A stretch of DNA of 57,801 nucleotides, from the IMG/VR virus record IMGVR_UViG_3300032080_000129, positions 1 to 57,801 of that record; one strand, given 5' to 3'. Positions 5,394-54,657 of the stretch are shown here, in pieces. Origin of the DNA: a virus. A program made the position numbers and the translations under genes. The notes under the pieces were generated by a model. It was not told the origin of the DNA, ran no database searches, and saw only the letters and a list, made by a program, of their open reading frames with translations. Position 1 is the first letter of the stretch. The number at the start of each line of letters is the position of its first letter.

Positions 5394-5610
5394 GTCCCTC
5401 TCCTTTGTCCTCGGTGTGTGCCGGGAGTTCGCCGTCTTTCCTCAGCGAGGCGCGGCAGTGCTGGCAGGTGACGATCTCGGGCGAGGAGTGATTCGCGACC
5501 TCAACCCAGCGGTTCGTGCTGGATAGGGCGCCGCAGAGAGTCAGGTCGAAGCCCGGAGCCGCGTGGATCTTCCGAGACGGTCGATATTCGACGGTGCGGA
5601 TCGAGGCCAT
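5386..5610 (-). CDS. Hypothetical zinc-finger-like protein, 74 aa
   Basis: ATG at 5610 overlaps the upstream TAA (TAATG). Contains TLCGALS and VTCQHCRASL, giving a C...CxxC knuckle comparable to the gene at 4278-4526. Such short Cys-pair proteins are frequent in actinophage early operons. Function unknown. Confidence 0.6.
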   Translation of the reverse strand: MASIRTVEYRPSRKIHAAPGFDLTLCGALSSTNRWVEVANHSSPEIVTCQHCRASLRKDGELPAHTEDKGEGRG

Positions 5611-41152: not shown

Positions 41153-41330
41153 TCAGGAGGAGCTGCGTTCGGCCTCACGGCACCGAACGTTGTTGAAGGC
41201 CTTCCAGTAGTCGAACTCGGTCTCGGACATTCCCGAGCCGGGCGGAAGACCTTCTAGTTCGCCGACGGTCTTGTGCAGCCGCTCGGCGAGTTCGAACATG
41301 AAGCGGAGGTCGCTACTCGGAGTCGTGAAA
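41153..41330 (-). CDS. Tail assembly chaperone C-terminal part, reached by +1 frameshift
   Basis: In the frame +1 to the chaperone gene, an open frame continues past its TAG and encodes SSDLRFMFELAERLHKTVGE and then LEGLPPGSGMSETEFDYWKA, ending at TGA 41153. FELAERLHKTVGELEGL...SGMSETEFDYWKAF is the signature of the second tail chaperone (T) of siphoviruses. The mRNA just upstream has GAG-UUU-CAC, where a P-site Phe-tRNA can move from UUU to UUC; this is the same UUU-C arrangement as known +1 sites. An internal ATG at 41299 without a good ribosome binding site is the alternative. Confidence 0.7.
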
Positions 41331-41681
41331 CTCGGCCTCGCGCTTGGCGGCCTCCTCCTTCTTGTCGCCGCCGAGCTTGCCGGCGACGTCCAGCACCTTG
41401 TCGACCTTCGAGGCCGGCCACTTCGGGAGGAACTTCCGGACCTCTTTGACCGAGAGGTTCGGTTCGCGGACGGCGTGGGCGAACATGCGGCACTGGAACT
41501 CCATCACGTCGCCGACGTTGCCGTCCTCGTCGAGCAGGCCCTTGAGCAGTTTCGCCCGTCGGCCAGCCTCCAGCTCGCGGACCAGAACGTCGCCGCCGAG
41601 CTCCTCGTACTCGACCTCCTCCTCGCGGAAGCTGAACGTCTCGTGAGCAGCGTTGATCTGCTCTGGGGTAAGTCGTGGCAC
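41313..41681 (-). CDS. Tail assembly chaperone, 122 aa
   Basis: GTG at 41681 after AAAGGAG. MPRLTPEQINAAHETFSFRE then LEAGRRAKLLKGLLDEDGNV and EVRKFLPKWPASKVDKVLDV is the plan of the first siphovirus tail chaperone (G-like). The last 30 residues are Lys/Glu-rich. It probably coats the tape measure during tail assembly. The reading frame ends at TAG 41313, but a +1 frameshift would add about 55 residues (see the neighbouring feature). Confidence 0.85.
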   Translation of the reverse strand: MPRLTPEQINAAHETFSFREEEVEYEELGGDVLVRELEAGRRAKLLKGLLDEDGNVGDVMEFQCRMFAHAVREPNLSVKEVRKFLPKWPASKVDKVLDVAGKLGGDKKEEAAKREAEFHDSE

Positions 41682-42196: not shown

Positions 42197-42466
42197 TCAG
42201 CCGGCTGGGTTGGCGGCGGCCTTGATCGCCTCGATAACCTCGTCCTTGTTGGCGAGGGTGTCGGGGCTCTTCACGCCGGCGATCTCCGCGAGTTCGTTCA
42301 GCTCGTCGCGGGTCTTGTCGGCTAGGCCGTCTCCGTCTTGTGCGAGGGCGATCCCGCCCCGGTCGATGGCGCGCTGCGCCGTCTCCTCGGGTAGGTCTGC
42401 CTCGAATTCCTCTCCCGGCTTGTGCCCGAACTGCGGCAGAGTCCCGGTGACGACGTACTTCGCCAA
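42197..42466 (-). CDS. Hypothetical protein with HeH/LEM-like C terminus, 89 aa
   Basis: N-terminal beta segment AKYVVTGTLPQFGHKPGEEF, then LADKTRDELNELAEIAGVKS and NKDEVIEAIKAA, a two-helix HeH/LEM/SAP-like motif. The same motif ends the protein at 45399-45776 (GKSREELNKIADEAGVQN). Found in many head and tail assembly neighbourhoods; function unclear. Confidence 0.7.
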   Translation of the reverse strand: MAKYVVTGTLPQFGHKPGEEFEADLPEETAQRAIDRGGIALAQDGDGLADKTRDELNELAEIAGVKSPDTLANKDEVIEAIKAAANPAG

Positions 42467-45398: not shown

Positions 45399-45776
45399 CT
45401 AGTCGTCCGTCGGGGTGCCCGGGTTGGACGCCTCGACGATGGCGGACTTGACCTCGTCCTTGTTGGCGAAGCCCTCGGGGTTCTGAACGCCCGCTTCGTC
45501 GGCGATCTTGTTCAGCTCCTCGCGAGACTTGCCCTCCAGGTCGTCCAGGTTCGTCCGGGCGCCGTCGGAGCGGGTCTTCCCGCTCTGGGGCGTCGGCTTC
45601 TCCTGATCCGGGGTCGTTTCCTCAGGCGCCGGCGTGCGCTTGCCCACCGACTCGTAGTCCTCGTCCCGAGCAAGCACCTTGTCCTGCTCGGTTCCCACGT
45701 AGGCGCCGAAGGTCTCTTCGGTCTCCTTGTGGCGGTACTCGTTGACCTCGTCAGAGGCCTTGGTCTTACGTGCCAT
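45399..45776 (-). CDS. Hypothetical protein with HeH/LEM-like C terminus, 125 aa
   Basis: A charged, low-complexity centre (TPAPEETTPDQEKPTPQSGK) and C-terminal GKSREELNKIADEAGVQNPE with NKDEVKSAIVEA. The same C-terminal module occurs at 42197-42466. It lies directly downstream of the capsid gene. It may be a capsid accessory (decoration or head-tail linker); this is only position-based. Confidence 0.65.
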   Translation of the reverse strand: MARKTKASDEVNEYRHKETEETFGAYVGTEQDKVLARDEDYESVGKRTPAPEETTPDQEKPTPQSGKTRSDGARTNLDDLEGKSREELNKIADEAGVQNPEGFANKDEVKSAIVEASNPGTPTDD

Positions 45777-47653: not shown

Positions 47654-48124
47654 TCGGATACGACGAGCTCTCCGCACTTGCGGGTGCCTCCTTGGGCATA
47701 GCGGCCACCCCGCCCTTGCGGGGAGCCTGTATCGAAGAGGTGCGGGCAGGCAGCGGGTGCGCGCCGCGCCTGCTGGGTGAGCAGGGGCTCCCATCAGCCT
47801 GCGCTCCCATCAGCCTGCCCTGTGGAGTGGGGCATCTGTCATCGCCCGGGAGATGCTGGTCTTCCCCTCCGGCGCCTCTACAGCGCCAGCGGAGCGACAG
47901 GGACTCGAACCCCGAAGGCGACTGACGCCGCCCTACGCGCTTAGCGGGCGCGCTCCTCGTCCTGCCGGACTCGCTCCGTGAAGATCAGATCGGTTCGGCC
48001 CGGTGAGGGCTCCGAGACGAGCGGCTGATCAGGCACAGGAAGTTCGAGGCTGACCGGCCCCGCGAAGACCGGCGACGTTTTCGCGCCAGCCGTGTACGGA
48101 CTCCGTGAATGGTGACAAGGTGCT
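47654..48124. other. 470-bp gap with tRNA-like and short open frames
   Basis: No clear gene. A GTG frame at 47941-48036 (31 codons, ending GRTDLIFTERVRQDEERAR) looks protein-like but lacks a ribosome binding site. A tRNA-like stem-loop lies at 47891-47956. The 48.06-48.12 kb part contains a frame continuing from the upstream gene that reads like protein (AKTSPVFAGPVSLELPVPDQ), hinting at a decayed small gene. No promoter seen. Confidence 0.4.
47891..47956 (-). other. Degenerate tRNA-like sequence
   Basis: Read on the minus strand it has an acceptor stem GGAGCG/CGCTCC, a T arm CGGGG-TTCGAGT-CCCTG and a partial D arm, but only 66 nt, with no room for a normal anticodon arm. It is not counted as a functional tRNA. 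It may be a decayed tRNA or a tRNA-mimic in the intergenic gap. Confidence 0.4.
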
Positions 48125-54583: not shown

Positions 54584-54657
54584 TGGCGGGGGCCAGATTT
54601 GAACTGGCGACCTCAGCGACATGAGCGCTGCGAGCTACCTGGCTGCTCTACCCCGCG
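54584..54657 (-). tRNA. tRNA-Met (CAT), initiator-like
   Basis: A 74-nt cloverleaf: acceptor CGCGGGG/CCCCGCC with a C1.C72 mismatch at the first pair (the mismatch at this position is the hallmark of bacterial initiator tRNA), D region AGAGCAGCCAGGTAGCTCG as in fMet tRNA, anticodon arm CAGCG-CTCATGT-CGCTG, T arm GCCAG-TTCAAAT-CTGGC, discriminator A. It differs from host-type initiator in that the three G-C pairs expected in the anticodon stem (GGG/CCC) are not there. CCA is not encoded. It lies between regulators and the late operon, in antisense to nothing. Confidence 0.85.

Follow-up and report, generated by a model that had tools for sequence, protein, structure and literature searches.

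Tail genes and reading frames at the locus

The stretch of DNA analysed here (the window) corresponds to one IMG/VR virus record with a length of 57,801 bases. Its tail genes were located on the minus strand and encoded a major tail protein, a chaperone G, a T-like region and a tape measure protein, in the order tail tube - G - T - tape measure that is found in known G/GT loci. The G-type tail assembly chaperone ORF (41681-41313, minus strand as for all features of this locus) had a length of 122 aa with a GTG start (41681) and a TAG stop, and matched the profile 'tail assembly chaperone' phrog_344 (E 3e-6). A Shine-Dalgarno-like AAAGGAG was read from the sequence at 41696-41690, 8 nt before the GTG start. 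The upstream neighbour was the major tail protein (42161-41697; phrog_4574, E 8e-11) while the downstream neighbour was the tape measure protein (41056-35291; 1921 aa). The T region ran from UUC to TGA in the +1 frame of G (41329-41153, 58 codons before the stop) and matched 'tail protein' phrog_337 (E 6e-5). A profile test of nine fusions showed phrog_344 in 9/9 and weak matches for the T parts, with phrog_337 in two and phrog_14766 in four. Structure prediction of G alone produced a mean pLDDT of 59, which was too low for a fold search, and a sequence search of solved structures with G returned no match.

The 3' end of G in the window read ...GAG UUU CAC GAC UCC GAG UAG. The UUU codon (41330-41328) was in frame in G and followed by CAC, and the 0-frame stop TAG (41315-41313), which ends the short product G, was found 15 nt downstream of the first base of UUU. 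The T-like peptide FTTPSSDLRFMFELAERLHKTVGELEG...ETEFDYWKAFNNVRCREAERSSS was located in the +1 frame, which was open from well upstream of this site to the TGA at 41155-41153, and was not open in the -1 frame at the window locus. The preliminary description, which ended the first chaperone at TAG 41313 and placed the T-like sequence in +1 and not -1, was correct in these details. The predicted slip site UUU_C (41330-41327) reads GAG UUU CAC in the 0 frame and UUC in the +1 frame. With TTTC read as one Phe, the predicted G-T fusion (41681-41153) has 175 aa and no internal stop, and TTTC occurs in frame only once within it.

Two small ORFs of the head-tail region on the minus strand (42197-42466 and 45399-45776) both ended in a Rho_N/SAP-like motif of about 40 residues, apparently a C-terminal domain that is shared or was duplicated. 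Genes for tRNA-Ser (gct) (47889-47977) and tRNA-Met (54584-54657) were also identified on the minus strand. No gene for tRNA-Phe, which could have a bearing on UUU slippage, was found among the tRNA genes of the window.

Conservation of the UUU_C site in homologous loci

Neither viral nor genome contigs yielded additional loci with a profile built from the window and its nearest relative, locus L002, therefore relatives were reached through tape measure searches and then with a chaperone profile. Scans for the window's own subclade recovered L002 alone. The comparison set comprised 39 loci from viral contigs, which gave 29 distinct sequences, or 10 groups when G was clustered at 70% identity. 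Every homologue of the window's chaperone type came from an environmental contig. The sole close relative was L002 (71-73% identical), which has T in the +1 frame and GAG UUU CAG at the position of the window's site.

T was in the +1 frame of G in 29/29 distinct loci. The homologous Phe was encoded by UUU in all 29, whereas the remaining Phe codons of these G ORFs comprised 92 UUC and 8 UUU (Fisher p 6e-22, a value that ignores kinship). The base after UUU was C in 28 of the 29 loci and U in one, while C followed 20 of the 100 other Phe codons (p 2e-14). The single exception was L111 with UUU_U, where re-pairing would still be possible. The junction codons, which the preliminary description had proposed to compare in related phages, were conserved against a UUU share of 8% at other Phe positions. 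At this share, UUU in 10/10 groups would be extremely unlikely even when groups are counted as independent. In the window, the expected number of UUU_C in the overlap was approximately 0.07 by codon use; since the site was in addition kept in all 29 distinct homologues (once as UUU_U), its presence in the window's overlap is not chance.

The codon after UUU was CCG in 16 loci, CAG in 8, CCA in 3, CAC in 1 and TCG in 1, and the frame-0 residue at this position varied accordingly (P, Q, H or S). This free frame-0 residue points to selection on the nucleotides. Residues of the +1 frame were conserved right after UUU; with UUC counted as codon 1, R was found at codon 2 in 24/29, A at codon 4 in 26/29 and R at codon 8 in 28/29 loci. 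Translation of the +1 frame thus appears to begin directly after the site. Downstream of the site, residue conservation was discriminating whereas plain codon-phase entropy was not. A need for Phe in both overlapping frames would also force UUU followed by U or C, and UUU_Y might then be kept merely by this double coding with no slipping there. Such an account requires translation of the +1 frame from upstream of the site, but L075 and L098 have a +1-frame stop 35 nt upstream, and UUU_C is also present in the unrelated Ajin-type chaperones and in HSTV-2 described below, which makes it hardly credible.

Finally, UUU_C near the junction was absent in 12/12 loci with T in the -1 relation (L077, L080, L083 and nine isolate phages). 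L077, L080 and L083 share the tape measure domain but belong to another chaperone type; their T is in the -1 frame, and their junctions carry the canonical -1 sites GGGGAA or GGGAAA. The single UUU_C seen in a -1 overlap was in L077, 504 nt before the stop. The -1 slippery heptamer class (XXXYYYZ, GGGGGAA) was rejected for the window, where T is in +1 and no such site was found at the junction.

Predicted route to the fusion and candidate stimulators

From the conserved frames and site, we consider it very probable that the locus makes both G and a G-T fusion by a +1 slip at UUU_C. Two tail assembly chaperones would be produced from one start. Most ribosomes would read G and stop at TAG 41315-41313, while in a minority the peptidyl-tRNA-Phe on UUU would move forward by one base, its anticodon would re-pair with UUC (41329-41327), and these ribosomes would carry on in the +1 frame to complete the 175-aa fusion. 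The step of tRNA-Phe from UUU to UUC would improve the pairing at the wobble position, an argument already made for PA-X. If the proteins work as in lambda, G would coat the tape measure protein, and the fusion would recruit the tail tube protein through its T part. The joining of the two chaperones by a +1 frameshift, as first suggested in the preliminary description, is strongly supported by the comparison, with both T in +1 and UUU in every distinct locus.

T could instead be a separate protein and not part of a fusion, started at an internal ATG (41299-41297) with possible coupling to termination at TAG 41315-41313. In the window this ATG follows the stop by 13 nt, an ATG is present at the corresponding position of L002, and T4-like phages are reported to make both chaperones without a frameshift according to the title of a work cited in PMC12859696. 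However, it is the sole nearby start in the T frame and has no Shine-Dalgarno (GACCTCCGCTTC), in agreement with the earlier remark that T lacks a strong start. Moreover, the positions of +1-frame starts were not conserved among loci, and L111 has no start before +139, which is inside the conserved T core; internal initiation is therefore not the general route to T. Conservation of the +1 frame (FRxAxxxR) begins ahead of any start, the UUU in 29/29 loci would be left unexplained, and the G stop is 66-153 nt past UUU in most loci. Overall, a separate T as the only product is very unlikely, and the comparison, in which T was in +1 in all 29 loci and L111 lacked a usable start, suggests that T has no initiation of its own and would be reached by frameshift. 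An extra separate T product may nevertheless be made in the window and L002 from their shared ATG after the stop.

A -2 slippage, of which phage Mu and phage 9g are known examples among tail chaperones (PMC5009743, PMC4276943), would lead to the same frame as +1. A -2 slip is very unlikely here because the sequence two bases back misfits tRNA-Phe and varies freely: the codon formed there is xGU, xAU or xCU, which does not fit the tRNA-Phe anticodon, and the codon before UUU may be AAG, CGA, CGG, ACG, GAG or others. No run such as GGGCGA or CCCUUUUUUU was found, nor a repeat for re-pairing two bases back, and -2 slippage gives no reason for the fixed C after UUU.

Candidate stimulators of the predicted +1 slip at UUU_C were also considered. 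The A-site codons were mostly common in the window's usage (CAG, CCG, CAC), hence a slow A-site codon was rejected as a stimulator for most loci. Downstream RNA structure was rejected as well, with a mean z of -0.35 (60 nt) and -0.89 (100 nt) compared to -0.76 for a control stretch, that is, nothing beyond the control. Both results were counted against the slip reading. A Shine-Dalgarno-like AAGGAGG at -30 to -24 from UUU (41360-41354 in the window) was near-constant in the 29 loci, and the Glu at -27 was encoded by GAG in 25/25 compared to 75% elsewhere in G. This motif probably reflects codon bias and a conserved DKEAI peptide rather than a stimulator. In the prfB type of +1 shift, the slip codon is preceded by a Shine-Dalgarno at a distance of about 3 nt and the A site holds a stop. 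A Shine-Dalgarno-stimulated shift of this type was rejected, as AAGGAGG, the nearest strong candidate, ends 24 nt upstream of UUU and the G stop is 15-153 nt downstream.

Other +1 tail chaperones and known systems

Frameshifting of G/GT is general in long-tailed phages, and -1, -2 and +1 shifts all occur (PMC5009743). The window resembles lambda in its gene order and in a short product and a predicted rarer fusion from one start; however, lambda and most phages shift -1 while the window would shift +1 at UUU_C. In the SEA-PHAGES data there were 350 forward sites compared to 2368 backward sites, and a 2024 frameshift predictor stated that no general forward-shift motif is known (PMC10885494). 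The preliminary description regarded a +1 shift as unusual, which holds in that +1 is the minority direction, but +1 joins are already annotated in records of Krampusvirus, Wollypogvirus and HSTV-2.

Among isolate bacterial phages with the +1 relation, UUU_C was found in 12/12 examined. In Microcystis phage Mae-JY09, G and T are in +1 with CGA UUU CCU. The +1 relation with UUU_CG[U/C] was found in 11/11 Ajin-type phages: Ajin, Aesir, Haunter, Krampus, Kurnik, Wollypog, LuckyLeo, Lambo, BigMama, BiteSize and Indlulamithi. Searches with window-type fusions gave no match to the Ajin-type chaperone family. Krampusvirus, Lambovirus, Terapinvirus, Dclasvirinae, Wollypogvirus and Indlulamithivirus thus share the +1 relation and UUU_C with the window but differ in having UUU_CG[U/C] and another chaperone family. 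A +1 join is annotated in four of the 11 Ajin-type GenBank records, and the Krampus record carries the annotators' note 'slipp is weird' at such a site. In the GenBank records of Ajin, LuckyLeo and Mae-JY09, the +1 T region is entered as a hypothetical gene of its own, and a +1 join is probably needed. In addition, ORFs in the chaperone position of Bifidobacterium phage Bbif-1 (GQ141189, 1412-2277) are named 'DNAase primase' and 'terminase large subunit-like', labels that look wrong for their place.

For archaeal viruses, TTT-CGC was proposed earlier for +1 in HF1 haloviruses (PMC7230728), and halovirus HSTV-2 was called 'very likely +1' in a review (PMC5009743). The HSTV-2 junction was read here as UCC UUU CGC, 24 nt before the G stop at 5514, with a +1 join annotated; it differs from the PA-X site UCC_UUU_CGU in the last base only. 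The HF1 group and HSTV-2 resemble the window in their +1 chaperone ORFs with UUU_C at the junction, but they are archaeal myoviruses with CGC in the A site and shifts that are proposed only, and their chaperones are likened to the window's by the junction and not by protein kinship. All +1 pairs examined (42/42) had UUU followed by C (41) or U (1), a count inflated by kinship as the pairs were mostly gathered by homology.

Influenza PA-X is an established case of P-site slippage on UUU_C (PMC3498833), and UUU_C with CGN is the motif of PA-X and the amalgaviruses (PMC3498833, PMC5052127). The window is like influenza A PA-X and the plant amalgaviruses in UUU_C in the P site and in the predicted slip of tRNA-Phe from UUU to UUC; these systems differ in their eukaryotic ribosomes, their other genes and a CGN A site, for which the window type has CAN, CCN or UCG. 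The 'PA-X-like' label of the preliminary description therefore fits the P-site step but not the A-site codon, which is CAC, CAG, CCG or CCA and not CGN. CGN in the A site was absent from the 29 window-type loci and present in the Ajin-type chaperones and HSTV-2. Listeria phages PSA, A118 and A500 and phage SPP1 also have a +1 shift in tail genes; however, the gene (major tail protein) and the outcome are different, and the Listeria site is CCC_UGA beside a stop codon.

Tail chaperones with a +1 shift had been described before, TTT-CGC having been proposed for the HF1 haloviruses. The new elements are a predicted UUU_C[C/A] variant and comparative evidence suggesting UUU_C as the common +1 signal of tail chaperones; a literature search of partial coverage found no paper that reports UUU_C in the tail chaperones of bacterial phages. 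That +1 sites based on UUU_C might form a class was anticipated in the PA-X paper (PMC3498833). It seems somewhat probable that UUU_C has the same general role for +1 shifts in tail assembly chaperones as the slippery heptamer has for -1 shifts. It would be used in at least three chaperone families that the present searches do not link, in bacterial and archaeal viruses, and would work in the window's clade with no CGN, rare A-site codon, adjacent stop, nearby Shine-Dalgarno or RNA structure. A rule of searching for UUU_C where T is in +1 would allow many split or mislabelled tail chaperone genes to be annotated. In addition, P-site +1 slippage in the absence of a stop codon could be studied in a naturally occurring bacterial system, and phages, archaeal viruses and influenza PA-X would be linked.
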